From contig JAPSGI010000002.1 of the NCBI GenBank assembly GCA_031177685.1, positions 1 to 64,000 of the forward strand: a DNA stretch of 64,000 bases, written 5' to 3'. Positions 3,755 to 28,366 of this stretch are shown here, piece after piece. The stretch's first letter is position 1, and every line of letters begins with the position of its first letter. Origin of the DNA: Solirubrobacteraceae bacterium. GTDB taxonomy: Bacteria > Actinomycetota > Thermoleophilia > Solirubrobacterales > Solirubrobacteraceae. Under the pieces are notes generated by a model. It ran no database searches. It worked only from the letters and a program-made list of their open reading frames with translations, and had not been told where the DNA came from. A program made the translations under genes and the position numbers.

Positions 3755-6244
3755 ATGTCACGCATGACAAATCGCTGGACGGTTGGAGTCCTCACGCTCA
3801 TCACGGCATGCGCTGTCGGCATGCCGGCGGCCGCGCACGCTCAGGCTCAGCAGAAGCCGACGATCGTCGTCAACACGACGCGAGACATCGTCCCCGACAC
3901 CGACATCGTCGAGCACACGGTGACCCCGACTGTGGGGCTCCACCCCTACGCGGCGGCGTGCCTGGGATACGAGAGCGCGAGCGGCTCGACAGACGGTGGG
4001 GCGCGAGGCGTCCTTCGCAGGACGGAGGACGACCTCAACACCGACAACCCCCCGGGCACTTTCCCCGCCATCCCAGATGTGGGACCAGTGTCCTCGGAGA
4101 CGAAGCTCACGCATCGCTGCTCGCTGCGGATGGCGCTCGCGCTTGCCCCCGCGCTGAGGAACAGCACCGTCGCCGGCATCGGCAGCAGCCTCACCGGCAA
4201 CAACGTTCTCATCGCCTTCGATCTGCCGGACCCGACCGACCGCACCATCGAGCTCGCGGCGAACGCCGCGCCTCTTCCGGCGCTCGTCGATCCCCTCGGG
4301 CTCCCGTTGAATCGCACCGGATCGATCGAGATCGACGGGTGCGCCCGGATCGATGCCGGCTCCGACAAGCCGTGCGTCGACATCAAGCTGCCGTTCGTCT
4401 CGCTGAACGTTCCGGGAATCACCTCCGCCGGCCCGCGCGACCTTCGCCCCGGCCTGGTCGTCGCCGCGCCCAACGTGACGATCAAGCGGCTGGCCTTCCT
4501 GGGAGGGGCCCCCGCGATCGCGTCCGTGCCGAGCCCGATGAACCGCTCCCCGACGGGGCCCACGCTCGTGGAGACGAGCAACAACCTCCAGGTCAAGAGC
4601 TCCTACTTCGGAATGGACCGCAACGGGGCGATGCAGGATTCCTACGCGCCCCAGGTCGGCATCCTGCTTTCGAGCAGCGACGCGCTCGTGGGCGGGGCGA
4701 ATGGCCGCAACGTCTTCGCGACGGGCGGCTTGGGCGTCCTGATCGCGGGCGGGGCGAACAACAAGGTCCAGGGCAACTGGTTCGCCACGGGCGGCGACGG
4801 GCGCGCGCTGTCTGCGAATGCCGACGTCGAGCCTCTCGGCACGGCGATCCGCGTCACCGGCGCGCGCCTCGATCCCGACCGCCTCGACGAGCTCGTCTTC
4901 GGGGTCAGCGAGGTCAACGCGGTGGACAACCCCGTGCCCGACGACGCCGCGGCTCCGGTCCTCGGCGCGGGCGACACCGGAGCGGCCAGCGTGGTCGGAA
5001 CCGGCAATCTCATCGGTGGCGCGCGCGCGGCGGGCGTCTCGCCCGACAGCTGCGTGAACCCCTGCAACGTGATTGCGTCGACGGCTGGAGCGGGGATCGA
5101 CATAGGCGGCCCCGGGCCGCGCGCGTTCCAAGTCGCGGGCGGAGTCGGCGACGTGCCCGCTCCGTCGAAGACCTCCATCCAGGGAAACCGGATCGGCCTC
5201 GACAACGATGGCCGCGTGGCGGGCACCGGTGCCCTGGATGCCGAGCCCGGGATCTGGGTGCGCAACGACGGAGTCGAGACCAAGATCGGCGGCAAGGATC
5301 AGGAGTCAAACGTCATCTCCCACAGCGGTGACGCGGGAGTCCTGGTCGACGAAAGCGCCGGCAAGCGGACTGTGATCGAGCGCAACACCGGCCGCGGAAA
5401 CCGCGGAATGCTCATCGACGTGGGCACTCCCGGCGCCGGCAACCCGCCCGACGGGCCGAGCGGCGGAGTGCAGGCTCCTGAGATCGCGTCGGCGACGCCC
5501 GCCCGGATAAGCGGCACCGCACCTCAGGGATCGGCGATTCACCTGTACCTGGTCCCCGCCGGCGCCGAGCACTCGTCCGGACGCGGTGACGTGGAGCGAT
5601 TCCTGGCATCCGCGACAGCCCGCTCCGACGGCACGTGGGGCGTGGACATGCCGGCGGGCGCGTTGAGCGTGGGCCGCAAGGTGACCGCGACGGCGAACGG
5701 TCCTCGGGGGCTCGGTACGTCCGAGCTGGGCCCGAACCGCACGGTGGCCGAGATCCAGGTCTCGACACCCGCGCCGCCGCCACCGCCCCCGCCGCCGCCG
5801 CCCCCGCCGCCGCCCCCGCCGCCGCCCCCGTCGCGCGACCGCGAGGCTCCCACGCTGGTCGCCGTCTTCGGCCAGCCGGCGTCCTCGCCGCGAGCCCAGA
5901 GCCGTCCGCTGACGGTTCCGCTCCCGAGGAGCGTCGCCGGCCAGGCCACCGACCGCTCGGGCGTCAAGCGAGTGGACGTGGCGCTGGCCCTGCCCATCGG
6001 CAAGGCCAGGCCGCGGCGCAAGCAGGCGTGCCGGTTCGTCGACTTCCGGCGCGCGCGCTACGTGCGGCGCGACTGCGCGAAGCCGCTGTTCGCCAAGGCC
6101 AGGGGAACGGCCTCCTGGCGCCTGCCGGTGTCGCGCAAGGTCCGCAGGGTGCTGCGCAAGCGGCGCCAGTACGTGCTCTACGTGCGCACCACCGACAGGG
6201 TGGGCAACTCGGTCGTCCGCACGATGAAGGTCAGGTTCCGTTAG
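3755..6244 (+). CDS. Large exported beta-helix-like protein with polyproline linker
   Basis: The 829-aa product has a signal peptide cut near AHA/QAQ (residues 25-31). Residues about 120-560 carry recurring GxxNxI, xxNVI and IxGNxxG turns typical of right-handed parallel beta-helices, preceded by a CSLRMAL segment similar to the CSLREA motif found at the start of such exported proteins. Residues 674-692 are 19 consecutive prolines encoded by a GCC/CCG-rich tract. The last 130 residues form a basic Ig-like domain (DRSGVKRVDVAL ... YVRTTDRVGNSV). AGAGAGG at 3741-3747 supports ATG 3755. It is probably a cell-surface or secreted carbohydrate-interacting protein; no catalytic residues could be assigned. 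A glycosyltransferase starts 8 nt later, suggesting cotranscription. Confidence 0.8.
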   Translation: MSRMTNRWTVGVLTLITACAVGMPAAAHAQAQQKPTIVVNTTRDIVPDTDIVEHTVTPTVGLHPYAAACLGYESASGSTDGGARGVLRRTEDDLNTDNPPGTFPAIPDVGPVSSETKLTHRCSLRMALALAPALRNSTVAGIGSSLTGNNVLIAFDLPDPTDRTIELAANAAPLPALVDPLGLPLNRTGSIEIDGCARIDAGSDKPCVDIKLPFVSLNVPGITSAGPRDLRPGLVVAAPNVTIKRLAFLGGAPAIASVPSPMNRSPTGPTLVETSNNLQVKSSYFGMDRNGAMQDSYAPQVGILLSSSDALVGGANGRNVFATGGLGVLIAGGANNKVQGNWFATGGDGRALSANADVEPLGTAIRVTGARLDPDRLDELVFGVSEVNAVDNPVPDDAAAPVLGAGDTGAASVVGTGNLIGGARAAGVSPDSCVNPCNVIASTAGAGIDIGGPGPRAFQVAGGVGDVPAPSKTSIQGNRIGLDNDGRVAGTGALDAEPGIWVRNDGVETKIGGKDQESNVISHSGDAGVLVDESAGKRTVIERNTGRGNRGMLIDVGTPGAGNPPDGPSGGVQAPEIASATPARISGTAPQGSAIHLYLVPAGAEHSSGRGDVERFLASATARSDGTWGVDMPAGALSVGRKVTATANGPRGLGTSELGPNRTVAEIQVSTPAPPPPPPPPPPPPPPPPPPPSRDREAPTLVAVFGQPASSPRAQSRPLTVPLPRSVAGQATDRSGVKRVDVALALPIGKARPRRKQACRFVDFRRARYVRRDCAKPLFAKARGTASWRLPVSRKVRRVLRKRRQYVLYVRTTDRVGNSVVRTMKVRFR
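5774..5830 (+). repeat. Polyproline-coding low-complexity tract
   Basis: Fifty-seven bases of CCG/CCC/CCA codons encode 19 prolines in a row within the beta-helix gene. It separates the helix domain from the C-terminal domain and probably acts as a stiff spacer across the cell wall. Such tracts are prone to length change and stall ribosomes without EF-P. Confidence 0.9.
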
Positions 6245-7272: not shown

Positions 7273-8283
7273 ATGCACCTGGGGGTAGTCGGCCTGGCGA
7301 ACGCGAACGCGTACTACCGCGCGATCTATCCGCTGCGCGAGATGGAGCGCCGCGGTCACGAGGTCGTGTGGCCGCTGGACTGGAGCGGGACGCCTGCTCC
7401 CACGCACTTCGCCGGCTGCGACGTGGTGCACGTCTACCGGCGCGCGGACGACGAGGCGCGCGCGCTCGTCGCGGGCCTGACGCGCAGCGGCATCCCGATC
7501 ACGTATGACAACGACGACGACTTCACCGCGACCCCCAAGCAGAGTCCCGCCTACAAGGACACCGGCGGGCTGCGAGGCCAGGCCTACTTCTCGGCCACCA
7601 CGAAGATGGCCCGCGTGGCGCAGACCTTCACGACGACCAGCGACGTGCTGGCGGAGAAGTACAGAAGCGCGGGCGTGGAGGAGATCGAGGTGATCGCAAA
7701 CGCGCTGGCGTCTGACGTGTCGCGCCCGACGAACCGGCACCGGGGGGTGGTGGTCGGCTGGATCGCGGCCGCCGAGCACCAGGCCGACCTGGCGCGGATC
7801 GGCATCGTCGACGCGCTCGAGCGCCTGGTCGCCCGCCACGCGGACGTCCGCGTCGAGTGCATCGGCGTAGACCTCAAGCTCAGGGAGCGCTACCGCCACG
7901 ACCCAGACGTCGACTTCGAAGAGCTGCCGCGCCGCATCGCCGGCTTCGACATCGGCATCGCGCCCCTGGCAAACATCCCCTGGAACCGCAGCCGGTCCGA
8001 CATAAAGCTCAAGGAGTACGCCGCCTCAGGCGTCCCATGGCTGGCCTCGCCCGTCGGCCCGTACGCACGGCTCGGCGAGGGCGAAGGCGGGCGGCTCGTG
8101 CCCGACGACGGCTGGTTCGAGGCACTGGACCGGCTGGTGTCGAACCGCAGGGAGCGCAAGCGGCTGGCGCGCAAGGCGCGCAAGTGGGCCAAGGGACAGA
8201 CGATCGACGCCGTGGCCGATCGCTGGGAAGCCGTGTTCGTCGACGCGGCGTCCAGCGGCATGCGGGGCGGCTCGCCCAGCTAG
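7273..8283 (+). CDS. Glycosyltransferase, paralogue 2
   Basis: The 336-aa product is a close copy of the enzyme at 6253, with GCDVVHVYRR, GIPITYDNDDD (79-83), TPKQSP, NRSRSDIKLKEYAASGVPW and the basic C-terminal helix. The pair is tandem with 6 nt between them and clearly arose by duplication. It converges on paralogue 3 (8294) with 10 bp between stops. Differences concentrate at residues 36-70, a region that often contacts the acceptor in GT-B enzymes, so the copies may use different acceptors; this is inference. Confidence 0.75.
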   Translation: MHLGVVGLANANAYYRAIYPLREMERRGHEVVWPLDWSGTPAPTHFAGCDVVHVYRRADDEARALVAGLTRSGIPITYDNDDDFTATPKQSPAYKDTGGLRGQAYFSATTKMARVAQTFTTTSDVLAEKYRSAGVEEIEVIANALASDVSRPTNRHRGVVVGWIAAAEHQADLARIGIVDALERLVARHADVRVECIGVDLKLRERYRHDPDVDFEELPRRIAGFDIGIAPLANIPWNRSRSDIKLKEYAASGVPWLASPVGPYARLGEGEGGRLVPDDGWFEALDRLVSNRRERKRLARKARKWAKGQTIDAVADRWEAVFVDAASSGMRGGSPS

Positions 8284-8293
8284 GCGTCGCGAA

Positions 8294-9274
8294 CTACGCG
8301 GCGGCGATCTCGCGGAACAGCCGCTCCCACTCCGCCGCGGACTGCTCGATCGTCTGCTTGCGCGCCCACTTCTTGGCGCGCCGGGCGAGGCGCCGGCGCT
8401 CCCGCTGCGAGGACACGAGCCGGTCCAGTGCCTCGAACCAGCCGTCGTCGGGCACCAGCCGCCCACCCTCGCGCTCCCCGAGCCCCGCGTACGAGCCGAC
8501 GGGGGAAGCCAGCCACGGCACCCCGGACGCGGCGTACTCCTTCACCTTGATGTCCGATCGCGCGCGGTTGAACGGCGTGTCGGCGAGCGGCGCGATGCCG
8601 ATGTCGAACCCGCCGATGCGGCGCGGAAGGTGCCCGAACGTCAGGATGCGGTCGTGGCGGTAGCGGTCGCCCAGGCCGAGGTGGACCCCGATCGACTCCA
8701 CGCGCACCTCGGCGTGCTTCTCCATCAGCCGTTGCAGCGCCTCGCGTAGTTTCAGCGCGGCGACGTCGGGCTCGTGCTCGCGCCCGGCGATCCACCCGAT
8801 CACGACGCCGGGATGGGCGATCGAGGGCCGCACGAGGTCGTGCGCGAGGTAGTTGCCGATCACCTCCACGCGCTCGACGCCCGCGCGCTGGAACTTGGCC
8901 GCCAGGTGTGCGGTGGTGGTCGTGCAGACCTGGGCCAGCTGCGCCACCTTGATGGTCATCCCGAAGTAGCGCTGCAGCGTCAGCCCGCCGGCTTCGCGAA
9001 ACGACCGGCTCTTGCGCGGCACCGCGGTGAAGTCGTCGTCGTTGTCGTAGACGATCGGCGTACCGGCGCTCCTGAGCTCCTCGTAGGCGCGGATGGCGTA
9101 GGGATGGCGGTAGACGTGCACCACGTCGCACCCGGCCAGCTTGCGAATCGCGTCCTCCGCCGTCGGGTCCTGCAGCCAGACCACCCGGTGTCCGCGGCGC
9201 TCCATCGCCTGGAGGGGATAGATGGCGCGATAGTGGGCGTTCGGCCCGGGCTCGTACACCGCTCCGATGCGCAT
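8294..9274 (-). CDS. Glycosyltransferase, paralogue 3 (inverted)
   Basis: The 326-aa product keeps the family marks: ERRGHRVVW, GCDVVHVYR, YDNDDD (76-81), NRARSDIKVKEYAASGVPW and the GGRLVPDDGWFEALDRLVS block. It is on the opposite strand to copies 1 and 2 and is preceded 12 nt upstream by the TylF-type methyltransferase, with which it probably forms an operon. The inversion and the extra edge copy show that this family has been duplicated and rearranged locally. Confidence 0.75.
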   Translation of the reverse strand: MRIGAVYEPGPNAHYRAIYPLQAMERRGHRVVWLQDPTAEDAIRKLAGCDVVHVYRHPYAIRAYEELRSAGTPIVYDNDDDFTAVPRKSRSFREAGGLTLQRYFGMTIKVAQLAQVCTTTTAHLAAKFQRAGVERVEVIGNYLAHDLVRPSIAHPGVVIGWIAGREHEPDVAALKLREALQRLMEKHAEVRVESIGVHLGLGDRYRHDRILTFGHLPRRIGGFDIGIAPLADTPFNRARSDIKVKEYAASGVPWLASPVGSYAGLGEREGGRLVPDDGWFEALDRLVSSQRERRRLARRAKKWARKQTIEQSAAEWERLFREIAAA

Positions 9275-9286
9275 TCGTCCGCCGCG

Positions 9287-9946
9287 CTAGCTCTTGCACC
9301 AGAAGGCCGCGTGCTCGTCGATCCGGCGCAGCGGCGCCGTGACGCGACGCTGCTCGCGGAAGTCGGCGATCGCCTGCTCGGCCTGCGGGAAGGTGTTGTA
9401 GTCGTCGATGATCACGAAGCCGCCGCGCGACAGGCCGTCGTACAGGTGCTCGAGCGGTGGCATCAACGATTCGTAGAGGTCGCCGTCGAGCCGGATGAGG
9501 CTCCAGCGCCGCCCCGCCAGCTGGGGCATCGTCTTCTCGAACAGTCCCTCCACGAACTCGATGCGGTCGTCGAGCAGCCCGTACCGGGAGAAGTGCTCCT
9601 GCACCTTCTCGCGCGGGACGCCCAGGTATCCGCTGATGCGGTGCAGCTCGTCTCCGTGGTCCCCACGGGGCTGCTTGGGCTTCGGCACGCCTCGGAAGGA
9701 ATCCGCGAGCACCACGTGACGCTTGGTATCGCCATAGGCGTCCAGGACGGCCTTCATGAGCATCGACGCGCCGCCTCGCCACACCCCCGCCTCGATCAGA
9801 TCTCCCTTGACGTTCTTGCGCACGATGTGCGTCACGACCTCCTGCCCGTCGACGTGCCGGCCAGATCGAGAAGAGCCAGCTTCAGGATCTCGAGATGCCG
9901 GGATCGCAGGGCGTCGGTCTTCATCCTCAGTAACAAACACACGCAA
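9287..9946 (-). CDS. TylF/MycF-type O-methyltransferase, N-terminus apparently frameshifted
   Basis: The frame encodes a class I SAM-dependent methyltransferase of the macrocin O-methyltransferase (TylF) family. Visible marks are DLIEAGVWRGGA (SAM site, residues 49-60), RLDGDLYES (152-160) and IDDYNTF (180-186), where the Asp residues match the metal site of MycF-like enzymes. Such enzymes methylate sugar hydroxyls. The first 30 residues here are unlike the family, whereas another frame from ATG 9924 reads MKTDALRSRHLEILKLALLDLAG, which is family-like, but stops at 9832. An indel or deletion near 9850-9870 probably broke the start. The TTG at 9946 is only the longest option. It sits upstream of glycosyltransferase 3. 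Confidence 0.65.
   Translation of the reverse strand: MRVFVTEDEDRRPAIPASRDPEAGSSRSGRHVDGQEVVTHIVRKNVKGDLIEAGVWRGGASMLMKAVLDAYGDTKRHVVLADSFRGVPKPKQPRGDHGDELHRISGYLGVPREKVQEHFSRYGLLDDRIEFVEGLFEKTMPQLAGRRWSLIRLDGDLYESLMPPLEHLYDGLSRGGFVIIDDYNTFPQAEQAIADFREQRRVTAPLRRIDEHAAFWCKS
9832..9924 (-). pseudogene. Displaced N-terminal piece of the TylF-type methyltransferase
   Basis: A 30-codon frame, ATG 9924 to TGA 9832, encodes MKTDALRSRHLEILKLALLD..., an amphipathic helix like the N-terminal helix of TylF-family methyltransferases (pattern LELLK..L.DL.G). It is out of frame with the catalytic domain at 9287-9946 and overlaps it. The family normally has some 40 more residues between this helix and the SAM motif, so a deletion as well as a frameshift is likely. 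GAGG directly abuts the ATG. Confidence 0.5.
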
Positions 9947-10018: not shown

Positions 10019-10073
10019 AAGTTCGGGGTTGACCGGATGGGGGCCGGAGCCCCGTAGGGACGGGAGAACCCAG

Positions 10074-13000
10074 GTGAGTCGCGCGCGAACCACCGCCTCC
10101 GTCGAGGAGGCGGTGCTGAACATCTGGAGCGAAGTGCTCGGAACGGCGGAGATCGGGGCCGGCGACGACTTCTTCGCGCTCGGAGGCCAATCCTTGCAGG
10201 CGGTTCAGATAGCCGCGCGCGTGCAGGAGGAGTTCGGCGTCGAGCTACCGGCCGACGTCTTCCTGGACACGTTCACGGTGGCCGGCATGGCCGAGGCCAT
10301 CCGCAGCGCGCGCGGCAAGACGGGCCCTGCGCCTTCGCGAGCGCGCCGCCGGCGCGACGAGCATCCGCTGCTGCTGGCCCAGGAGGGGCTTTGGAGCGTC
10401 AGCGTCGCCTACGCGCCCGACATGAGGCCCCAGACGTACCGGACGTTCCGGCTCGCCGGCCCGGTGGACGCGAGCGCGCTGAGGCACGCGGTCACGGAGA
10501 TCGCGCGGCGCCACGAGAGCCTGCGCACGGTGTTCCGCGTCGACGCGGGGCGACCACGCGCGGTGGTGCTGCCCGAGCCGCGGGTCGAGCTGTCGGTCGT
10601 CCGCGTGCCGGGCGGCGGTCGCGGCGAGGAGCACGCGCGACGCGAGGCCCGCCGCGCCGCCGACGACCCCTTCGAGATCTGGGACGCACCGCCCTGGCGC
10701 GCCGTCCTGGTCTCCATCAAGCCCGACCTTCACCTCTTCGTCCTCGTCCTGCACGAGATCGTCTGCGACGGCTGGTCGTTCGACGTCCTCATCGCGGAGC
10801 TCTCCGACCTCTACGCCGGCCACCTCGACGGCTCGCCGCCGCCGGCGCAGCTGCCGATCCAGCCCGCCGACGTCGCCGACTGGGAGCGCAGCTGGCTCTC
10901 GACGGAGGAAGCGGCGGCTCAGCGCGCGTACTGGGACACGGCGCTGGCGGGCGCGCCGCTCACCTTCGAGCTGCCCTTCCGCGTGACCGACGACGAGTCG
11001 GCGCAGCGGATCCCCCAGCGCATCGCGTCGCCGCTCCCGGACACCGTCTCCGACGCCCTGCGCGACCTGGCCGAGCGCGAGAACGCCAGCCTCTTCACGG
11101 TCTACCTGGCCGCGTTCTTCGTGCTGCTCGCCCGCTACACGGGCGACACCGACCTCGTGGTCGCCTCTCCGACCGCGAACCGCACCCACCTGGACGTCGA
11201 GGGCCTGATCGGCGCCTTCATGCGCAACCTGCCGCTGCGGGCGCGGCTGGATGGCGATCCCAGCTTCCTCGACCTGCTGGGGCAGGTGCGCAGGACGGTG
11301 CTCGACGGAGTTCGCAACGGCCTGCTGGCCAGCGATCAGGGTGCCCTGCTGCTGCGAGAAGACGCCCCCCGCGGACTGCGCACCGACTTCGTCGGCTTCC
11401 GGCTCAGCCATTCCGAGGGCAGTCCCGCGCTGGGCAGCCGCCTCGAGCTCCCGGGCGTGCGCGCGGAGCTGGTCTCGCCTCCACCGGACCCGCCGGCGCG
11501 CCTGGCGCTCGAGATCGTGGCGCCCCCGGGCCGGACCGCAACCGCCACGCTGGCGTTCGACGACGCCCAGCTCGACGCCGCCATGAGCAAGCGGATCCTG
11601 GCCGCCTACGGGAACATCGCGGCGCGCTGTGCGCGAGACCCGGACTCGCCGGTGTCCGAGCTGGGGGCCGCCGCCGAAGACAGGGTGTCCCGGTGGTCGC
11701 CCGCGGACATGCCGCAGCCGGCGGTCGGCTCCGCGCACGAGCTGGTCGAGCGCCTGTCGTCCGAGGCCCTCGCGGTGCGCGGGCCCGCGGGCGACGTGAG
11801 CTTCGCCGAACTGGACGCGCGAGCGAACCAGGTCGCGCACCGGCTGGCCGCGGAGGGCGTCGGTCCGGGGACGACGGTGGGACTCCGCCTGCCGCCGTCC
11901 GCCGACCAGCTGGTGGCCATGGTGGGCGTGCTCAAGACCGGCGCCGCGTGCGCCGCTCCGGGTGTTGCGGACGTCGACGTGAGCGTGGACGCCGAGAGGG
12001 TCCGCGGCGCGCTGGAGCGCGAGCCGATCGGGAGCCTGGACGCGGCGATCGAGCCGGACGCCCCGGCCTTCGTGCTCTCGACGAGCGGTGTCACCGGACC
12101 GCCCCGGCGGATCGTGCTCTCGCACCTGTGCCTGGTCCAGGCAGCGGCCGGTTGTGCGCGCGCGCAGGGCGTGACGGCGGCGGACCGCGTGTTCGCGCTC
12201 GACGGCCCGGGCGTGTCGGGCTGGCCGCTGGCAGTGTGGCCGCACCTCGCCTCGGGCGTCACCGTGGTCGTCCCCGACGGCGCGCCGCACCAGGCCGCCT
12301 CGAGCCTCCTGCGCTGGCTCGCCGACCGCGAGGCCACCGTCGCCGTCGTCGGCGCTCGGCTCGCATCGGAGCTGCTGGCCCTGGAGGACCTGGGTGGGGC
12401 GGGGCTGCGGCTGGTGCTCGTCGCGGGCCCGGGCGCCCTGGACCTGCCGCCCGCTCGATCGCGGGCGCGGGTCGCCGTCGCCCGGCAGTACGGGATCGCC
12501 GAAGCGGGCGGGGTGGTCATGTCCGCGCCGGTGACGCAGCGGCCCACGTCCGAGGCGCCGGCGATCGGGACGGCGAAGTCATCGCGCGCCGCGGTGGCCG
12601 TCCTGGATCCGTGGTCGCGTCCGGCGCCCATCGGGATTCCCGGCGAGCTGTGCCTCGCCGAGGACTGCATCGCCAGCCCGGACGTCTTCGTCGACCACGC
12701 GGGAGAGCGCTGGATCAGGACCGGGGACCTCGCCCGCATGCGCGAGGACGGGACGCTCGAGCTCGTCGGCCGGCGCCGCGACGAGCTGCGCTTTCGCGGC
12801 TTTCGACTCAACTGGCGCCTGGAGGCGCTCGAGTCCTGCCTGCGCTCCCATCCGGGGATCGCGGCCGCCGCGACCGCGTGGGACGCCGCGGACGAGGCGA
12901 TCGTGGCCTACGTGGTGCCACGGCGGGCCCGGCCGCCCGCGCGCAAGGACCTCGATCACTGGGTCAAGCGCAACATGGCGAAATGGGTGCTGCCGGCGCG

Positions 13001-13412
13001 CTACGTCCGGGTCGAGGCCATTCCGGCGCGGCCGGACGGGACGACTGACCGGTCGGCGCTCGGGGGGCTGTTCGGCGAGGTCGTCGGGGACGTCGAGCCG
13101 CCGGGGCCGGCGGTCGAGCGGGCGCAGCAGGCTCTGGCCGCCATCTGGCGCGACCTGCTGGGGCGCCGGCGCGTCGAGGCGAACGACAACTTCTGGACGC
13201 TGGGCGGCGACCTGGTCCTGGGCGTCGAGATGGTTGCGCGAGCGCGCGAGGCGGGCGTGCCGATCGCGGCTCCCCAGGTGTTCGCCAGCCCTACGATCTC
13301 GGAGCTGGTCGAGGAGGTCGAGGGCTCGCTGGACGAGAGCGCAGTGGCGGCGCCCGCCCCGAGCTCGGGAAGGCCGCTGAGCCAGCTCGTCAGGCGGTGG
13401 TCCAAGCGGTGA
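10074..13412 (+). CDS. NRPS with T-C-A-T architecture and lost catalytic residues
   Basis: The 1112-aa protein has a carrier domain (about 10-75, GGQS with Ser40 intact), a condensation domain (about 97-520), an adenylation domain (about 560-1000) and a second carrier domain (about 1020-1085). Three key sites are altered: the C-domain HHxxxDG is HEIVCDG (His227-Glu228), losing the second, catalytic His; the A10 PNGKxDR is PDGTTDR with Thr990 in place of Lys; and the second carrier has GGDL with Leu1047 in place of the phosphopantetheine Ser. Core A3 (TSGVTGPPRR), A7 (TGDL) and A8 are recognisable. GGGAGA before GTG 10074 supports this start. It probably works with the stand-alone ligase at 13954. 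There is no thioesterase domain. Confidence 0.85.
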   Translation: MSRARTTASVEEAVLNIWSEVLGTAEIGAGDDFFALGGQSLQAVQIAARVQEEFGVELPADVFLDTFTVAGMAEAIRSARGKTGPAPSRARRRRDEHPLLLAQEGLWSVSVAYAPDMRPQTYRTFRLAGPVDASALRHAVTEIARRHESLRTVFRVDAGRPRAVVLPEPRVELSVVRVPGGGRGEEHARREARRAADDPFEIWDAPPWRAVLVSIKPDLHLFVLVLHEIVCDGWSFDVLIAELSDLYAGHLDGSPPPAQLPIQPADVADWERSWLSTEEAAAQRAYWDTALAGAPLTFELPFRVTDDESAQRIPQRIASPLPDTVSDALRDLAERENASLFTVYLAAFFVLLARYTGDTDLVVASPTANRTHLDVEGLIGAFMRNLPLRARLDGDPSFLDLLGQVRRTVLDGVRNGLLASDQGALLLREDAPRGLRTDFVGFRLSHSEGSPALGSRLELPGVRAELVSPPPDPPARLALEIVAPPGRTATATLAFDDAQLDAAMSKRILAAYGNIAARCARDPDSPVSELGAAAEDRVSRWSPADMPQPAVGSAHELVERLSSEALAVRGPAGDVSFAELDARANQVAHRLAAEGVGPGTTVGLRLPPSADQLVAMVGVLKTGAACAAPGVADVDVSVDAERVRGALEREPIGSLDAAIEPDAPAFVLSTSGVTGPPRRIVLSHLCLVQAAAGCARAQGVTAADRVFALDGPGVSGWPLAVWPHLASGVTVVVPDGAPHQAASSLLRWLADREATVAVVGARLASELLALEDLGGAGLRLVLVAGPGALDLPPARSRARVAVARQYGIAEAGGVVMSAPVTQRPTSEAPAIGTAKSSRAAVAVLDPWSRPAPIGIPGELCLAEDCIASPDVFVDHAGERWIRTGDLARMREDGTLELVGRRRDELRFRGFRLNWRLEALESCLRSHPGIAAAATAWDAADEAIVAYVVPRRARPPARKDLDHWVKRNMAKWVLPARYVRVEAIPARPDGTTDRSALGGLFGEVVGDVEPPGPAVERAQQALAAIWRDLLGRRRVEANDNFWTLGGDLVLGVEMVARAREAGVPIAAPQVFASPTISELVEEVEGSLDESAVAAPAPSSGRPLSQLVRRWSKR

Positions 13413-14074
13413 CCGCGGCGGGCCAGGTCGACGTCTGGGTCGTGCACCTGCGTGCCGCCCCGGTGCGGCCGCCCGCCCGCCGCGGTTTCCTGCGTTGCGT
13501 GCTGGGCCTTCACCTGGACGAGGATCCCGCCGCCCTGCGCTTCGCCGCGGGTCGCAACGGCAAGCCGCACCTCGTCGGCCGGGCGCTCGAGTTCAGCGCC
13601 AGCAGCTCGGGGGACCTGGCGCTCTGCGCCGTGTCGCGCGAGGCGGTCGGGGTGGACGTCGAGCAGGTCCGCCGTGACGGCTGGCAGGCGGTCGCGCGGT
13701 GCTACCTCTCAGCGGGCGAGCGCGAGGCGATCGGCCGGCACGGCCCGGAGGCCTTTTACCGCGCCTGGACGCGGCGCGAGGCGCTCGTCAAGGCGCGAGG
13801 CGGGACGCTCGCACATGCGCTGCGCGAGCGCCGGACGCCGCACGACGGCCTCACGCTGCACGTGTTGGACATCGCTGACGGCTACGCCGCGAGCCTCGCC
13901 GTCCGCCACGGTCGTCCGTCCGTGCGCGTGCGGGAGTGGAGCCCGCGGCCCGTTCAGGCGGTGCCGGCCGGTGTGGCGGCCGAGGCCAGCTGCGCGAGCG
14001 CTCCGCGCGCGATCTTGCCCGAGCTCGTCCGGGGGAGTCCGTCCACCGGCCGCAGCACGCTCGGAACCTTGTGA
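13409..14074 (+). CDS. Sfp-type 4'-phosphopantetheinyl transferase
   Basis: The 221-aa product carries the Sfp motifs GVDVE (81-85, magnesium site) and WTRREALVKARG (120-131, the W..KEA..K motif). It would transfer phosphopantetheine from CoA to carrier-domain Ser, here most likely Ser40 of the NRPS. GTG 13409 overlaps the NRPS stop as GTGA, the usual sign of translational coupling; an in-frame GTG at 13397 is an alternative. The family's SHS motif is SASSSG here. The last 40 codons overlap the convergent ligase gene by 121 bp and have no family character, so the stop was probably acquired downstream. Confidence 0.8.
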   Translation: MTAAGQVDVWVVHLRAAPVRPPARRGFLRCVLGLHLDEDPAALRFAAGRNGKPHLVGRALEFSASSSGDLALCAVSREAVGVDVEQVRRDGWQAVARCYLSAGEREAIGRHGPEAFYRAWTRREALVKARGGTLAHALRERRTPHDGLTLHVLDIADGYAASLAVRHGRPSVRVREWSPRPVQAVPAGVAAEASCASAPRAILPELVRGSPSTGRSTLGTL

Positions 14075-15237
14075 GGCGCCAGCTCCTGCAGGAGCCGGCG
14101 CCGGAACGCCACCTGGTCGACCGGCGCCTCGAGCTCCAGAAACGCCCACAGCCGCGCGTCGGGGACGGCGCACGCGCAGGCGCGCACCTCCGGCTGTTCC
14201 TCGATGACCGTCTCGATCTCGCGCAGCGCGATCGTGGTCCCGCCGACCTTGACGCGCTCGGAGGCCCGACCTTCCAGGCACAGCCGCCCGTCGCGCGCCA
14301 GCCGGCCCAGGTCCCCGGTGTCGTAAGGGTCGCCGTCCAGTTCCCGTACGAGCACGCGGCCCGGCTGGTCGCCATCCGCGCCGGCCACCTCGATGGCGAT
14401 TCCCGGCAACGCGTGGCCGACCGAACCCGGCACGCCCTCCGGGTCGACGGTGAGCGGACCGGTCTCGGTCGTGCCGTAGTTCTCGCACAGCGGGTGCTCG
14501 TGACTGCGCAGCCACGCCTCGTAGACGTCACGGGGTAGGGACTCGCCGGCCGAGATGGCCAGCCGCGGCCGCAGCTGCGCCACGTCCGCGCTCGCGTACC
14601 AGCGCCACAGGGCCGGGACGGACATGACGACCGAGCCGCCGCCGGCTTCGATCGCGCTCGCGACCCGCTCTGGCGTCGCCGGCACGGGCGGCCGGTTGAA
14701 CGTGGCGCCGGCGAGCAGGGCCGGCAGCAGCGCGGCGTTGACCGCGTAGCTGTGGTGCAGGGGACTGGTGGACACGACGACGTCGTCCGGCTCCAGCGCC
14801 AGCGCCGTGCCCACCGCACTCGCGCTGCGCATCACGGCCGGCCAGGAGCGCGCCGCGATCTGCGGCTCGCCCGTCGCGCCCGAGGTCCGCAGCAGCAGCC
14901 CGCCGGGCATGGCGCCGTTGCCCGGGGCGCCCGCGAGCCTGTGAATCTCGAGACCGTCGCCGTCCGCCGCCAGCATGGCGTCGATGCGCTGCTGGCGCCG
15001 CACGCGCGCCCGCTCGCCCTCCGGCGCCGAGCCGTCGAGCAGGAGCAGGGCGGCGTCCACCTCGGCGGCGGCGAGCACCGCGACGGCGACGTCCACCGCG
15101 CGGTCGGCGACCAGGCACAGGACGGCTCCATCCGAGAGCCCCTGCCGCGACAGGTCGCGCGCGTGTTGCGCGACGAGACCGTCGAGGTCGCCGAACGAGA
15201 CGGCGCGTCCCTCTTCGCGGACCGCCACGCGCGTCAA
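13954..15237 (-). CDS. Stand-alone adenylating enzyme (ANL superfamily)
   Basis: The 427-aa protein has the AMP-binding motif RTSGATGEP (117-125), ENYGTTETGP, YDTGDL, GRASERVKVGG and a C-terminal LPRTSSGKIARG with Lys408, the catalytic Lys that is missing from the NRPS A domain. It is shorter than typical acyl-CoA ligases (about 500), fitting a free-standing carrier-loading enzyme. TTG 15237 overlaps the cupin stop as TTGA; GTG 15228 is an alternative start. The simplest reading is that it activates an acid and loads the intact carrier of the NRPS in trans. Substrate is not predictable by eye. Confidence 0.8.
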   Translation of the reverse strand: MTRVAVREEGRAVSFGDLDGLVAQHARDLSRQGLSDGAVLCLVADRAVDVAVAVLAAAEVDAALLLLDGSAPEGERARVRRQQRIDAMLAADGDGLEIHRLAGAPGNGAMPGGLLLRTSGATGEPQIAARSWPAVMRSASAVGTALALEPDDVVVSTSPLHHSYAVNAALLPALLAGATFNRPPVPATPERVASAIEAGGGSVVMSVPALWRWYASADVAQLRPRLAISAGESLPRDVYEAWLRSHEHPLCENYGTTETGPLTVDPEGVPGSVGHALPGIAIEVAGADGDQPGRVLVRELDGDPYDTGDLGRLARDGRLCLEGRASERVKVGGTTIALREIETVIEEQPEVRACACAVPDARLWAFLELEAPVDQVAFRRRLLQELAPHKVPSVLRPVDGLPRTSSGKIARGALAQLASAATPAGTA

Positions 15238-15659
15238 GGCGCCTCCTCCGCGGTCTCCCGGCCGAGGTAGATCGCCACGAACGTCCCCGACCCCCGCCGC
15301 AGGTTCGCCGCGTGCACGAGCCCCGGCGGTTGCCAGATCGTGGCGGGCGACTCGACGTCGACGTCGTCGCCGCCGAGGTGAAAGGTGTAGGCGAGCTGCC
15401 CGGGCTCACCGATCAGCAGGCATATCTCGCCGAACGGGTGGGAATGCGGCGCGCAGTAGTCCCGCCGGACGTCTTCGGCCTCCTCGGAGATCATGTGAAC
15501 CGCGACGTGAAACGGGCACCCCGGGGGGGTGAAGCGGCTGATTTCCGGAATGTCCCGGTAGCGCGGCGTGCTGGAAAGCGGCGCCGCGACGTTGCGAAAC
15601 ACGTACGGCCCCGGAGCCTGCTCGGAAGCCGGCATCACGCGCGCACCGTCCCACGCCAT
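15234..15659 (-). CDS. Cupin-domain protein
   Basis: The 141-aa product is a single cupin barrel. Motif 1 is HSHPFGEICLLIGEPG (metal ligands H, H, E) and motif 2 is PATIWQPPGLVHAAN (H). It overlaps the adenylating enzyme by 4 nt in the same operon, so its role is presumably in the same pathway, such as oxidising or isomerising the activated acid, or sensing the product; this is inference. The start ATG lies about 33 nt downstream of an extended -10 box. Confidence 0.7.
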   Translation of the reverse strand: MAWDGARVMPASEQAPGPYVFRNVAAPLSSTPRYRDIPEISRFTPPGCPFHVAVHMISEEAEDVRRDYCAPHSHPFGEICLLIGEPGQLAYTFHLGGDDVDVESPATIWQPPGLVHAANLRRGSGTFVAIYLGRETAEEAP

Positions 15660-16809: not shown

Positions 16810-17280
16810 TCACTTGAGCGAGCGCTGGAGTTCGGTCTGTGCGTCGTTCGCCGCCGACAGGGCGAGCTGGACTCGCGCGGCGGCCTCCCGCTGGCGGCGC
16901 TGCGGGCGGTTCGCCGCGTAGACGTCCACGAAGCGCCGCAGCCTCCGCACGAACGCCGCGTTGGCCCGCACGTAGCGGCGGAACTTCGACTCGGCCCCGT
17001 CGGGTGGATTCAGCGCCGCGATGCGCCGCGTCACTCCCTCCACCCCCGCCACCTGCTCGCGCAGCGCCCGGATGTCGCTCGCCCGTCCGGGCCGGGCCGC
17101 GCGCAGGACGACCGCCAGCGTCGCGCGCTCCTCGCCGAGGCGCTTGACGAGGGGATTGAGCTTGTCGACGCGAAAGTCACGCTTCTCATTTCCACATCCT
17201 CCGACGAAACCCAGCAGCGCGAGGACGGCGAGGACCGCCGCCGGCGCGCCGGCTGGTCGCTCAAACCGCCAGGAGCGCAC
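16810..17280 (-). CDS. Putative lipoprotein downstream of sigma factor 1
   Basis: The 156-aa product has a hydrophobic N-terminus and the lipobox VGGC (Cys29). The mature part is a long, Arg/Leu/Ala-rich helical region, probably coiled (KRLGEERATLAVVLRAARPG, FVRRLRRFVDVYAAN). The GTG start overlaps the end of sigma 1 by 20 bp, so both are cotranscribed and probably coupled. A surface sensor for the sigma factor would make sense, but this is inference. No known family is recognised. Confidence 0.65.
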   Translation of the reverse strand: MRSWRFERPAGAPAAVLAVLALLGFVGGCGNEKRDFRVDKLNPLVKRLGEERATLAVVLRAARPGRASDIRALREQVAGVEGVTRRIAALNPPDGAESKFRRYVRANAAFVRRLRRFVDVYAANRPQRRQREAAARVQLALSAANDAQTELQRSLK

Positions 17281-18220
17281 GCCGGCGCCGCTGCAGGACC
17301 GGCGTCTGGTGCGTCAGCCGGCCCATCGGGTGGCGATCGTGCATGCGCGGGCTGCGCGTCACGGCCGCCAGCGTCGCGTCCAGGGAGTCGACGGCGGCCC
17401 GATGCAGGCCCGTGGCCTCCGCGGGCGCGATCCGCATGATCTCCGCGATCTCCGCGAAGCTCAGCCCCGCGAAGTAGCGGAGCACCAGCGCGTGGCGTTC
17501 GGGAGTCGGGCGGCGCTCGACCAGCAGGAGCAGATCGTCGTCGCTGAGCCACTGCAGCAGGTCCTCCTCGGGCGGCGTCTCGGACACCGCCTGCGGCCCG
17601 GTGTGCCCGTTCGCATGGACGGCGCGCGCCGCGGACGGCAGGTCCGCGCACGAGGCGTCGTACGCAAGCGCAAACAGCCACGGACGCAGCTCGCTGGGCG
17701 CGGGAGCAACCTCGCGCAGCAATCGCAGCGCTTCGGTGAGCACGGCCGCCACCCGCGACTCCACGTCCGCGCCGCGGTCGGCCGTGACGCGCAGGTACGT
17801 GTAGAGCGGGTCGAACCACCGGCCGTAGAGCTCCTCGAAGCCCCGCTCGCCGGACTGGAAGCGCACGACCGCGCGGACCGCCTCGACGTCGTCGCGGAAA
17901 TGGTCGGGGAGGTCCAGCGCCTCGAAGAACGACAGCTCGGCGACGTGCTGGCGCAGCGACCGCGGGAGGTCGCCGGGGGGCTGGACGGGCACGAGCACCG
18001 CACGGCGCTCGGCGATTCGCCGCCCGGACGCGTAGGCGATCCGTCGGCGATCCGCCGCGGGCGGAACGGACAGGCGGCGCGTCCTGCGGTCGGCGCCGAC
18101 ACGCCGGTCACCGCGGCGGCGCTCCACGACGAGCGCCAATCCCTCCGAGCGCTCCACACCGCGCTCCAGGGCGCGCCGCACTCGACCCGCCACGCTGGGC
18201 GCCATGACGCAGTAGACCAT
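17261..18220 (-). CDS. N-extended ECF-like sigma factor 1 (degenerate region 2)
   Basis: The 319-aa protein has the same three parts as five others nearby: an N-terminal domain beginning VYCV.. with VVERRRGDRR...DRRTRR...GRRIAERRA (1-75), a sigma-70 region 2 (about 115-200) and region 4 (about 230-285, LVERRPTPERHALVLRYFAGLSFAEIAEI), then a PVLQRRRRALL tail. Region 2.2 is eroded: where the others have DDHEAEDV.QQVF, this has GADVESRVAAVLTEAL, so core RNA polymerase binding may be lost or altered. GGAGGT precedes ATG 18220. Heads an operon with the lipoprotein at 16810 and the small WP protein at 16403. Confidence 0.75.
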   Translation of the reverse strand: MVYCVMAPSVAGRVRRALERGVERSEGLALVVERRRGDRRVGADRRTRRLSVPPAADRRRIAYASGRRIAERRAVLVPVQPPGDLPRSLRQHVAELSFFEALDLPDHFRDDVEAVRAVVRFQSGERGFEELYGRWFDPLYTYLRVTADRGADVESRVAAVLTEALRLLREVAPAPSELRPWLFALAYDASCADLPSAARAVHANGHTGPQAVSETPPEEDLLQWLSDDDLLLLVERRPTPERHALVLRYFAGLSFAEIAEIMRIAPAEATGLHRAAVDSLDATLAAVTRSPRMHDRHPMGRLTHQTPVLQRRRRALLAV

Positions 18221-18494: not shown

Positions 18495-19430
18495 GTGGGA
18501 AGGGGCACCTTCTACTGCGTCGTTCCCCGTGACCTGGGTGCCGAGGCTTACGAGCTGCTCAGCGCCCACTGGCAGGACGATCCGGGGATCACGGTCGTGC
18601 AAGATCGCCGCCAAGGCGAGCGGCGGCGCACGAACGAGACCGGCGGGCGCCGCGTGACCGAGCGGCGTGGCAGCCAGGTCGTCGAGCCGCCGGTCAAGGT
18701 GCCCCGCAAGCTGTGCGCGTACGTCCAGCGCGTGCGCTTCGGCGTCCGGCGCGACGGCGAGCCCCGCGCGCCCGAGGACGTCGACTCCGACCAGTTGATC
18801 CTGCGCATCCAGCGCGGCGACAAGTCCGCCTTCGACACGCTCTACGTGCGTTACTTCGACCGCGTGTACGCGTACGCGCGCGTCGCGCTGCGCGACGACC
18901 ACGAGGCCGAGGACGTCGCCCAGCAGGTCTTCGGCAACGTGATCCAGGCGCTACCGCGCTACCAGGTGCGCGAGGACTCCTCCTTCCGCGCATGGCTGTT
19001 CCGGATCACGCGCAACGTGGTGCTGCGCACCCTGGCCCGCAACGGGCGGATGCAGCCGCAGGAGCCCGCGGAGCTGGACCGGCGCCTGGAGAGCCCGGTG
19101 CCGCAGGCGCCGTTCGAGCTCGAATGGCTGTCGGACAAAGACCTCGCGATGCTGGTCGAGCGCCTGCCCGTGACCCAGCAGCAGGTGATCCTGCTGCGCT
19201 ACGTCTTCGAGTTCAAGACGAACGAGATCGGCGAGGTGCTCGAGCGCACGCCCGTGGCCATCCGCATGCTCGAGCACCGCGCGATGCGCGCGCTGGAGGC
19301 CCGGCTGCACTCGATGCGCGGGATCACCCGTCGCTGCGACCGCACCCCGATGGTCGCGCTCGCCCGTCCGGCGCCGGTCCTCTTCCGCCGAAGCCTGGCG
19401 CTGCAGGCATACGGCGGCGCGCCGCTGTAG
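18495..19430 (+). CDS. N-extended ECF-like sigma factor 2
   Basis: The 311-aa protein has the N-terminal domain (FYCVVPRDL...HWQDDP...VVQDRRQGERRR...GRRVTERRG, 1-58), sigma region 2 (DTLYVRYFDRVYAYARVALRDDHEAEDVAQQVF, then FRAWLFRITRNVVLR) and region 4 (VERLPVTQQQVILLRYVFEFKTNEIGEVLERTPVAIRMLEHRAMRALEARL), ending with the PAPVLFRRSLAL tail. It is most similar to sigma 4 (24602). Unlike sigma 1, 3, 5 and 6 it has no small WP protein next to it. GTG 18495 starts the coding region; a TrmH-like gene follows 10 nt after the stop. Confidence 0.8.
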   Translation: MGRGTFYCVVPRDLGAEAYELLSAHWQDDPGITVVQDRRQGERRRTNETGGRRVTERRGSQVVEPPVKVPRKLCAYVQRVRFGVRRDGEPRAPEDVDSDQLILRIQRGDKSAFDTLYVRYFDRVYAYARVALRDDHEAEDVAQQVFGNVIQALPRYQVREDSSFRAWLFRITRNVVLRTLARNGRMQPQEPAELDRRLESPVPQAPFELEWLSDKDLAMLVERLPVTQQQVILLRYVFEFKTNEIGEVLERTPVAIRMLEHRAMRALEARLHSMRGITRRCDRTPMVALARPAPVLFRRSLALQAYGGAPL

Positions 19431-24493: not shown

Positions 24494-24560
24494 GCGCCTG
24501 GCGGCCCGGTCCCGCGTCGGCGGGGCCGGGCCGCATTTCTCCCAGCGGCGTTGCCAACAC

Positions 24561-24574
24561 TGGTAGCGTTGCCG
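24561..24574 (+). promoter_or_regulatory. Extended -10 promoter element, sigma factor 4
   Basis: TGGTAGCGTTGCCG has the extended -10 form TG-G-TAGCGT plus TTGCCG, near-identical to the boxes before sigma 1 and sigma 2. It lies 28 nt before TTG 24602. GCGTTGCC also occurs just upstream at 24548-24555 as a direct repeat. Confidence 0.45.
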
Positions 24575-24601
24575 CGGCCAAGCGGAGGTGAGACGAGCCT
24601 G

Positions 24602-25594
24602 TTGCCGGTGGGGAGGACCGTGTACTGCATCGTCCCGCGCGATCTCGCGCCGGAGCTGCACGAGTACCTCCGCCGCCACTGGCGCTCCGACCGTTCCGTG
24701 GTCGTCGTGGTGGAGCGCCGCCAGGCCGAGCGCCGGCGCGGCGAGCGCCGCGCCTCGGTGACCGCGCTGCCCGACCGTCGCGACCGGCGCCGCGCGGGGA
24801 GCCGGCTGGGGCGCCGCGTCGAGGATCGCCGCAGCGCCGAGCCGGCGCCCACCCCGCTCGAGCTGCCCGAGCAGGTGCGGCCGTTCGCCGACCGGCTGGT
24901 CTTCCTGGAGCGCCTCACGCCCCTGAGCCGTGCGGCCGAGGACGCCGACACCGACCGCCTCGTCGCGCGCTTCCAGAGTGGCGACGTCCATGCCTTCGAC
25001 GCGGTCTACCTGCGCTACTACGACCGTGTCTACGCCTACGCGCGGGTGGCGCTACGCGACACGCACGAGGCCGAGGACGTCGCCCAGCAGGTGTTCGGGA
25101 ACGTGATCGAGGCGCTCCCGCGCTACCAGGCGCGCCCCGGCACGCCGTTCCGGGCCTGGCTGTTTCGGATCACGCGCAACGTCGTGCTGCGCAGCCTGCA
25201 GCGCACCGGCCGGGTGAGTCCGCAGGAGCCGGCGGAGCTCGAGCAGCGCATGGACGTGCCCGCGCCGGCGGCGCCGCTGGGGCTGGAGTGGCTGTCGGAC
25301 GGGGACCTCGCGACGCAAGTCGAACGGCTGCCGCTCACCCAGCGCCAGGTGATCCTGCTGCGCTTCGTCTTCGAGCTCGACACGCGCGAGATCGCCGATG
25401 CGCTCGAGCGCACGCCGGTGGCGATCCGCATGCTCGAACACCGCGCCATGCGTGCCCTGGAGGCCCGCCTCGACGCGCTGCGCGGCGGGTCCGGCGGCCA
25501 GTTCCGCACGCCGGCGACGCGCCGGTTCCCGGTGCTGCCCGTCCTCGCCGCGCGCCGGCTGGCGCTGCACACGCCCGGCGGCGTGGTGCTGTAG
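24602..25594 (+). CDS. N-extended ECF-like sigma factor 4
   Basis: The product (about 330 aa) has the N-terminal domain VYCIVPRDLAPELHEYLRRHW...[16 protein letters not shown]...DRRDRRR...GRRVEDRRS, sigma region 2 (DAVYLRYYDRVYAYARVALRDTHEAEDVAQQVF; FRAWLFRITRNVVLR) and region 4 (ERLPLTQRQVILLRFVFELDTREIADALERTPVAIRMLEHRAMRALEARL), ending PVLPVLAARRLALH. It is a close paralogue of sigma 2, also without a small WP neighbour and with the same promoter element. GGAGGTGA at 24584-24591 favours TTG 24602; GTG 24608 is possible. Converges on sigma 5 with 6 bp between stops. Confidence 0.8.
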   Translation: MPVGRTVYCIVPRDLAPELHEYLRRHWRSDRSVVVVVERRQAERRRGERRASVTALPDRRDRRRAGSRLGRRVEDRRSAEPAPTPLELPEQVRPFADRLVFLERLTPLSRAAEDADTDRLVARFQSGDVHAFDAVYLRYYDRVYAYARVALRDTHEAEDVAQQVFGNVIEALPRYQARPGTPFRAWLFRITRNVVLRSLQRTGRVSPQEPAELEQRMDVPAPAAPLGLEWLSDGDLATQVERLPLTQRQVILLRFVFELDTREIADALERTPVAIRMLEHRAMRALEARLDALRGGSGGQFRTPATRRFPVLPVLAARRLALHTPGGVVL

Positions 25595-25600
25595 CCGCCG

Positions 25601-26641
25601 CTAGCGGGCGTACGTCGGCTGGCGCACGATGAAGCGGTCGCGCCGCGCGGCCAGGGTCGGCCGCCAGGCGCCGCGCATCGGGACGCGCAGGCTCGGCGTG
25701 TCGGCCCCGCGACCCAGCGCCTCCAACCGCGAGCGCAGCGAGCTGAGCGCGCGCTGGTGCAGCTGGCGCACCGCCTCCGGCGAGCGGTACAGGATCTCCG
25801 CGATCTCCTGGAAGCTCAGGTCGAGCATGTAGCGCAGCAGCAGCACCTGGCGCTGGGCCAGCGGCAGGCGCTCGACCAGGACGACGACATCGGTGTCGGT
25901 CATCCACTCCAGGACGTCCGGGCGGACGCCCTCGTCGCGGGCCTCGCGGCGCTGGTCGACCGTGCTGGGCTCCTCGACCCGCATGCGCCCGGAGCGGCGG
26001 GCGTGGCTGATCGCGTGGTTGCGCACGATCCGGAACAGCCAGCCGCGGACGGGCGTGGCGCGCAGCTCGTAGCGTCCGAGCGCCTCCATCATCTGGATGA
26101 AGACCTGCTGCGTCGCGTCCTCGGCCTCGTGGCTGTCGTTCAGGGCCACGCGCAGGTAGCTGTAGACGCGGTTGAAGTAGCGCTCGTAGATCTCGGCGAA
26201 GACGGCGCGGTCGCCCGCCTGCCAGCGCGTGACGATCCGGGCGGTGTCGAGGTCCTCGCGCAGCTCCTCGCCGATGTCGATGCGCTCGACGAAGACGAGC
26301 CGCTCGGCGTAGGCCGCGGCGCGCCGCGGCAGCACGCCGGGCGCGGCGACGGGGATCAGCGTGGCGCGGCGCTCGCCGACTCGCCGGCCGCCCAAATTGT
26401 GGACCCGCCGGCGCTCGGCGTCGGGGGCCTCCGCCTGGTCGCCGGGCCAGGCGACGTTGCGGCGCTCCGCGGCTGCGCGGCGGTCATTGCGGCGCCGTTC
26501 GAGGACCACCTCGACGCCGTGCTCGAGGCCGTGGCGGCGCAGCGTCGGCTCCAGGCGCGCGAGATCCGGCGGCAGCAGGCATTGGACCGGCTCCGCCGTG
26601 CCGACGTGGTCGCCGCCCCGCGTGGCCGTGTCGGAGGACAC
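25601..26641 (-). CDS. N-extended ECF-like sigma factor 5
   Basis: The 346-aa protein carries the N-terminal domain (VQCLLPPDLARLEPTLRRHG, VEVVLERRRNDRR...AERR...AERRRV...GGRRVGERRA), sigma region 2 (AEIYERYFNRVYSYLRVALNDSHEAEDATQQVF; RGWLFRIVRNHAISHAR), region 4 (VERLPLAQRQVLLLRYMLDLSFQEIAEILYRSPEAVRQLHQRALSSLRSRLEAL) and the PTLAARRDRF tail. The GTG start comes 2 nt after the stop of the small WP protein gene (26644), so the pair is one transcriptional and probably translational unit with the partner made first. Confidence 0.8.
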   Translation of the reverse strand: MSSDTATRGGDHVGTAEPVQCLLPPDLARLEPTLRRHGLEHGVEVVLERRRNDRRAAAERRNVAWPGDQAEAPDAERRRVHNLGGRRVGERRATLIPVAAPGVLPRRAAAYAERLVFVERIDIGEELREDLDTARIVTRWQAGDRAVFAEIYERYFNRVYSYLRVALNDSHEAEDATQQVFIQMMEALGRYELRATPVRGWLFRIVRNHAISHARRSGRMRVEEPSTVDQRREARDEGVRPDVLEWMTDTDVVVLVERLPLAQRQVLLLRYMLDLSFQEIAEILYRSPEAVRQLHQRALSSLRSRLEALGRGADTPSLRVPMRGAWRPTLAARRDRFIVRQPTYAR

Positions 26642-27382: not shown

Positions 27383-28366
27383 GTGTCTCGGACGAGCCCC
27401 ATCATCTACTGCGTCATCCCGGCGGACCTAGCCGACGAGCTGCACGAGGGGCTTCGCGAGCACTACCGCGACGACCCGCAGGTCCAGGTCGTCGTCGAGC
27501 AGCGCCAGTCCGACCGCCGCCGCGGCCGCGACCGGCGGCGACGCCCGCTCGGCGCCGTCGAGCGCGAGCGCCGGCAGGTGCGCGCGCGCAGCGGCCGGCG
27601 CGTGGAGCAGCGCCGCGCGGAGCTGACGCCGGCCGCCCCGCCCTCCCTGCCCGAGCCGCTCGAGCCCTTTCGCGACCGGCTGCGGTTCGTGGTGCGCGAG
27701 GAGCCCACGACGCTCGCGCGCGAGGACGCCGACACGGCGCGGCTGGTCGTGCGCATCCAGGGCGGCGACAAGGACCTGATCGGGCCGCTGTACCTGCGCT
27801 ACTTCGATCGCGTCTACGCCTACCTCAAGATCACGCTGCAGGACCAGCACGAGGCCGAGGACGCGGCGCAGGCCGTCTTCATGCGCGTCCTCGAGGCACT
27901 GCCGGGCTACGAGCGCCGCGACGTCCCGTTCCGCGCGTGGCTGTTCCGGATCGTGCGCAACGACGCGATCAACCGGCTGCGTCAGCGCCAGCGGCTGACC
28001 GTCGAGAGCCCGGCCGACCTGGCCGAGCGCGGGGACCGGGCCACGCCGCCAACCGGGCCGGAGGAGATCGACTGGATCGGCGACGCCAAGCTGCTCGCGC
28101 TCGTGGAGCGGCTGCCGCTCGGCCAGCGCCAGGTGATCGTCCTGCGCTACATGATGGACTTCAACACCATCGAGATCGCGGAGCTGCTCGACCGCTCGCC
28201 CGAGGCGGTGCGCCAGCTCCACCACCGGGCCATGCGCTACCTTCGCCAGCGCATGAGTCGCGACGACGGCGAGCAGGGGTTCCGGCGCTCGCAGCGCAAG
28301 GCGGTCACCCGCCTTCCGCGCCATTCGCCGGTGCTGCAGGCGCGCAAGCGCGCGGCGCTCGGCTGA
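27383..28366 (+). CDS. N-extended ECF-like sigma factor 6
   Basis: The 327-aa protein has the N-terminal domain IIYCVIPADLADELHEGLREHYRDDP...VVVEQRQSDRRRGRDRRRR...RERRQV...GRRVEQRRA, sigma region 2 (GPLYLRYFDRVYAYLKITLQDQHEAEDAAQAVF; FRAWLFRIVRNDAINRLR), region 4 (VERLPLGQRQVIVLRYMMDFNTIEIAELLDRSPEAVRQLHHRAMRYLRQRM) and the HSPVLQARKRAALG tail. AGGAGGGAG at 27371-27379 sets the GTG start. The small WP protein gene lies just upstream. A GNAT gene follows 13 nt after the stop. Confidence 0.8.
   Translation: MSRTSPIIYCVIPADLADELHEGLREHYRDDPQVQVVVEQRQSDRRRGRDRRRRPLGAVERERRQVRARSGRRVEQRRAELTPAAPPSLPEPLEPFRDRLRFVVREEPTTLAREDADTARLVVRIQGGDKDLIGPLYLRYFDRVYAYLKITLQDQHEAEDAAQAVFMRVLEALPGYERRDVPFRAWLFRIVRNDAINRLRQRQRLTVESPADLAERGDRATPPTGPEEIDWIGDAKLLALVERLPLGQRQVIVLRYMMDFNTIEIAELLDRSPEAVRQLHHRAMRYLRQRMSRDDGEQGFRRSQRKAVTRLPRHSPVLQARKRAALG

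Follow-up and report, generated by a model that had tools for sequence, protein, structure and literature searches.

A T-C-A-T nonribosomal peptide synthetase module in Solirubrobacteraceae with lost catalytic residues, an intact first carrier and, probably, a changed function

Introduction

Single dead domains in nonribosomal peptide synthetases (NRPSs) are already known. In albicidin biosynthesis, an inactive in-line adenylation (A) domain is complemented in trans (PMC8949500); in assembly lines of this type, among them those for ramoplanin and enduracidin, an A domain is present but its core motifs are degenerate, so that a separate activating enzyme is needed, and that domain is the only dead one in a large working line. 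CmnI, which acts in capreomycin biosynthesis, has a carrier (T) domain with no A domain of its own that is loaded by the A domain of another module (PMC12400406). Condensation (C) domains, too, have departed from the canonical HHxxxDG motif: streptothricin ORF18 has HQxxxDM and joins a PCP-bound donor to a soluble aminoglycoside, with stand-alone A domains encoded in its cluster (PMC11546977), and the X domains of glycopeptide synthetases keep the C fold with a broken motif, HRxxxDD, and recruit P450s (PMC11546977, PMC8949500). According to the title of a study listed among the references of PMC8795117, the inactive C1 domain of VibF is used for dimerization.

The window studied here, the first 64,000 nucleotides of contig JAPSGI010000002.1 of a Solirubrobacteraceae bacterium, encodes a T-C-A-T protein in which the A domain and the second carrier (T2) are disabled, the C domain is altered and the first carrier (T1) is kept, with most of the losses common to two genera. 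The protein resembles the albicidin-type lines in its degenerate A domain but goes beyond them, in that both A and T2 are without catalytic residues and the altered C domain is the only one detected in the genome. Its closest likeness to ORF18 lies in an intact carrier (Ser40) joined to a C domain whose second motif His is replaced (Glu228), with a stand-alone ligase nearby and no predicted need for a second carrier; it differs in having Glu rather than Gln, in keeping the motif Gly and in its degenerate A-T2 tail. With the X domain it shares a conserved C fold and a broken catalytic motif, which reads HE...DG rather than HR...DD. Like VibF C1, its C domain may be a noncatalytic domain retained for structure, one of the two roles considered below; VibF is otherwise an active synthetase. 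CmnI, in which a C part likewise accompanies a carrier that is loaded in trans, as proposed for the window protein, differs in belonging to a complete NRPS line and in lacking a degenerate A-T tail.

Domain organization

The preliminary description of this DNA had placed the gene correctly, with respect to coordinates, frame, length and residue numbers: 1,112 codons without an internal stop run from a GTG at 10074, which lies downstream of a GGGAG at 10062-10066, to a stop at 13410-13412 (Table 1). Pfam recognizes two PP-binding domains, a Condensation, an AMP-binding and an AMP-binding_C domain in the ORF. An AF2 model (mean pLDDT 79.6) has a full NRPS module fold, with LgrA, Txo2, SrfA-C and EntF among its best structure matches, and the C-A-T domain order and folds of an NRPS elongation module are present; by fold and descent, the protein is an NRPS module. 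The leader at 10040-10075 was considered as a riboswitch and rejected, having no Rfam match up to E 1 and folding no better than shuffles.

Table 1. Features of the T-C-A-T gene and its neighbors, in window coordinates
Feature	Position	Strand	Remarks
TylF-family methyltransferase	9287..9946	-	divergent neighbor; membership in the module's pathway putative
T-C-A-T protein	10074..13412	+	1112 aa, GTG start, intact frame
T1 carrier domain	10095..10313	+	Ser40 intact, codon 10191-10193 (GGQSL)
C domain	10356..11663	+	C3 motif HEIVCDG at 10752-10772 (H227-E228)
A domain	11721..13073	+	without A3 Lys, A4 Asp, full A6 loop and A10 Lys
T2 carrier-like domain	13107..13325	+	without attachment Ser; Leu1047, codon 13212-13214 (GGDLV)
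4'-Phosphopantetheinyl transferase (PPTase)	13397..14074	+	GVDVE and WTRREA motifs intact
Stand-alone AMP-forming ligase, 427 aa	13954..15237	-	A10 Lys present; candidate T1 loader
Small cupin-like protein	15234..15659	-	best PDB match E 0.0015

Loss of catalytic residues

When the protein is aligned with 33 NRPS segments taken from relatives, Ser40, the HE motif, Thr990 and Leu1047, all singled out by the preliminary description, fall at catalytic columns. Glu228 replaces the second His of motif C3, which is His in 24 of 26 ordinary NRPS comparators; Thr990 (PDGTTDR, codon 13041-13043) replaces the A10 Lys, kept in 29 of 30; and Leu1047 stands in the T2 attachment column, where Ser is found in 27 of 27. 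The three losses listed at the outset are thus all real, but they are an undercount. The A3 Lys has become Arg678 and the C5 Asn Arg384 (Asn in 24 of 26 ungapped comparators), and Ser715 takes the place of the A4 Asp, which in canonical A domains binds the amino group. The A6-A7 loop comprises 27 residues against a comparator median of 40 (range 37-46), and every comparator is longer both there and in A2-A3. Several motif residues are unchanged: the first C3 His, C3 Asp-Gly, A5 Glu, A7 Asp and A8 Arg.

Ordinary NRPSs show at least 90% conservation at 78 alignment positions, of which the window protein has lost 27 (35%), against a median loss of 3% among ordinary NRPSs in the same alignment; measured at these sites, its losses exceed chance. 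One A-T row of the alignment (L039) has lost 32% of them, without catalytic losses in the motifs examined. Lacking HHxxxDG, the A3, A4 and A10 residues and the Ser of its own T2 carrier, the window protein should not, on this reading of its motifs, be annotated as an amino-acid-incorporating module.

A distant orthologue

We sought orthologues at four taxonomic levels (family, 146 genomes; order, 232; class, 399; phylum, 396), in sets that overlap and are a sample, and among plasmids and viral contigs; the search returned a single orthologue and no third member in any of these sets. It lies in a genome of another genus in the same family (G053, L037:9950-13372) and aligns with the window protein over its full length at 43% identity. 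The preliminary description had reasoned that canonical residues in orthologues would mark the window copy as simply decaying, and the sole orthologue is without them. Its C3 motif reads HEVVCDG, with Glu at the second His as in the window; its A3 Lys is replaced by Arg and its T2 Ser by Leu, both identical to the window; and Trp, Met and Arg stand in place of the A4 Asp, the C5 Asn and the A10 Lys, respectively. The A6-A7 loop is shorter still, whereas the T1 Ser is present and the frame is open. In a tree, the two proteins form one clade (support 100/99), with tip branches about twice the median.

Matches in Saccharothrix, Caldilineaceae and Litorilinea contigs and in genomes G140, G142, G151, G157, G311, G328 and G382 were rejected as orthologues, being ordinary NRPSs. 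Every aligned C domain of these candidates has the second His, bar one in G142 (PH...DG), and the A10 Lys and the carrier Ser are present wherever aligned. Separately, an IMG/VR contig carries an ordinary A-T NRPS segment (L105:79-1752), and Litorilinea MAGs of the Chloroflexota (L036, L034) encode series of individual A-T proteins, each about 640-710 aa long, with carrier domains that closely resemble one another.

The orthologue has lost 28 of the 78 conserved sites, and 22 sites are lost in both proteins where 9.7 would be expected if losses were independent (P = 1.2e-9), and most of the losses were therefore probably shared before the two lineages diverged. Despite about 57% amino acid divergence, both frames are open over about 1,100 codons, with no stops. 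Between the two genes, identity is 59% at codon position 1 and 60% at position 2, as compared with 36% and 26% in shuffles. Identical residues use the same codon at a frequency of 0.59, near the 0.55 given by codon usage alone, and synonymous sites are thus saturated while the protein sequence is kept; because of this saturation, with GC3 at 93-97%, the NG86 method gave no usable dN/dS ratio. As far as two sequences on long branches can tell, the codon-position pattern is one of purifying selection in kind, without a ratio, and the substitution rate is raised in the pair. The shared losses, the saturated synonymous sites, the conserved positions 1 and 2 and the lack of stops make recent decay and sequencing error unlikely, and we rejected sequencing error or a chimera because an independent genome carries the same replacements. 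An orthologue with the same losses, the T1 Ser and an open frame favors a long-maintained, changed protein over simple decay or error, and the module is probably kept for a changed job rather than encoded by a dying gene.

The losses are unevenly distributed along the protein. T1 of the window protein retains 15 of its 16 canonical sites, and the N-lobe of the C domain has lost, in both proteins, only the second His of its nine most conserved sites. In the A domain, 18 of 59 sites are lost in both (11 of 42 in the A core and 7 of 17 in the A sub-domain), as are 2 of 7 in T2. Judged by these counts, conservation centers on T1 and C, where a single pointed substitution touches the C active site, and degeneration is concentrated in A-T2. 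Identity between the two proteins is, however, 45% in T2 and 47% in T1, and the A sub-domain is as conserved between them as T1; T2, being as conserved as T1, is not plainly vestigial.

Gene neighborhoods

The start of the PPTase gene overlaps the T-C-A-T stop by 16 bases. This PPTase is one of two ACPS-family matches in the genome; the other, on another contig beside glmS- and nnr-like genes, is probably AcpS. The AMP-forming ligase gene, convergent with that of the PPTase, encodes Gln at the A3 Lys position and has no counterpart in other genomes among 299 of the class at E 1e-30. The cupin-like gene overlaps the ligase start by 4 bases, and the two form a probable operon.

Several other features of the window were noted in passing. 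Two similar, convergent glycosyltransferase-like genes occupy 7273-9274, beside the methyltransferase gene and, like it, on the divergent side of the T-C-A-T gene. An 829-aa protein encoded at 3755-6244, for which Pfam gave no match, contains a long run of prolines toward its C-terminal end. Five sigma-70-like genes lie between 17261 and 28366 (17261-18220 on the minus strand, 18495-19430 and 24551-25594 on the plus strand, 25601-26641 on the minus strand and 27383-28366 on the plus strand); at least three of their products have a common N-terminal stretch with a run like ERRxxERRR, and the product of 17261-18220 has a weak region 4 match only, with no region 2 match.

The window and the G053 locus show no synteny, their neighborhoods sharing nothing but the module gene. 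A ligase adjoins the gene with the degenerate A domain in the window, whereas in G053 neither a ligase nor a PPTase directly adjoins it, so that trans loading by a neighbor is suggested in the window only. Instead, a transglutaminase-like gene (L037:8984-9895) lies 54 bases upstream of the G053 module gene; its product matches Transglut_core at E 3e-8 and, judged by eye, retains Cys, His and Asp where they are expected. Carrier, ligase and asparagine synthase genes 16 kb from the G053 module gene were judged to be a separate cluster.

Discussion

Weighing these comparisons, we incline, by a modest degree, to a repurposed T-C-A-T module in which T1 would be the sole carrier able to hold cargo. 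We posit that the overlapping PPTase makes T1 holo and that a ligase acting in trans, most simply, in the window, the neighboring AMP-forming enzyme, puts an acyl or aminoacyl group on it. The C-A-T2 body would no longer activate or accept a second building block but would keep its fold and hold T1, once loaded, for either a partner enzyme or a soluble acceptor; A and T2 would be noncatalytic, and C could be either (i) a docking platform or (ii) a noncanonical condensation site for a soluble acceptor. What is observed is an intact frame, the T1 Ser, the PPTase motifs and catalytic losses common to a distant orthologue. Against the repurposing model, conservation rests on one comparison between two members, and tips of this length would also come from relaxed constraint; the Gln at A3 of the window ligase, the unshared gene neighborhoods and a T2 conserved to the degree of T1 count against it as well. 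The preliminary description had argued for a repurposed scaffold under selection: the shared losses of the sole orthologue bear out a part of this proposal, but the term scaffold may claim too much, given that the second His is the only one of nine highly conserved C N-lobe sites to be lost and that C domains with this His replaced can be active, as in ORF18 (PMC11546977).

If C is given a catalytic role, T1-C would form a working unit whose C domain is of a new subtype, in which Glu takes the place of the second His and the T1 group passes to a soluble acceptor, A and T2 being unneeded. This sub-case of the repurposed-module explanation is a tentative one. Of nine C N-lobe residues, the second His alone is lost in both proteins, each time in favor of Glu, ORF18 provides a precedent for such a transfer and for stand-alone A domains in the same cluster, and mutation of the second His leaves activity in some C domains (PMC11546977); yet the C5 Asn is gone as well, the term HExxxDG was not found in the literature searched, and an HExxxDG pattern scan covering 299 genomes of the class yielded no additional C domain in those matches that were inspected. 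The fuller proposal, that Glu replaces the catalytic His in a new C subtype while A and T2 persist as a noncatalytic body, seems doubtful. Alternatively, the C-like domain could be an X-domain-type docking platform that recruits tailoring enzymes to the T1 cargo, a reading we consider conceivable rather than probable. X domains (4tx2, 4tx3, 6m7l; Z ~40), whose broken motif and P450 recruitment supply the precedent, rank with the solved folds nearest to the C part of the model, but fold similarity is general to the superfamily, the sequence of the C part places it closer to ordinary C domains (5u89, Txo1, Txo2) than it does to X domains, and no P450 was recognized among the neighbors scanned beside the module gene of the window or that of G053. 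Either role, platform or active HE variant, may apply to the C domain, and the present evidence does not separate them.

The long tips, the raised substitution rate and the rarity and patchiness of the gene (one relative in 146 family genomes) would also fit slow decay, in which function was lost in the common ancestor and both copies then drifted, their frames staying open by chance or through selection on T1 alone. We think this unlikely: the frames have stayed open at the divergence given above, codon positions 1 and 2 are far above shuffles across the whole gene, and T1 is no better conserved than T2 and the A sub-domain. It is less likely still that in G053 the transglutaminase-like enzyme took over condensation, in the manner of AdmF, reportedly the transglutaminase-like condensation enzyme of andrimid. 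The AdmF study is among those cited by PMC5216899. The position of its gene, its Transglut_core match and its kept Cys, His and Asp speak for such a takeover, but no relative was found in the window genome or in 60 relatives, and it therefore cannot be a mechanism common to both proteins.

A repurposed module of the kind proposed here would show that a synthetase module can be retained for a role other than peptide-bond formation. For genome mining, it counsels caution, in that neither an amino acid nor a peptide bond necessarily follows from a T-C-A-T call.
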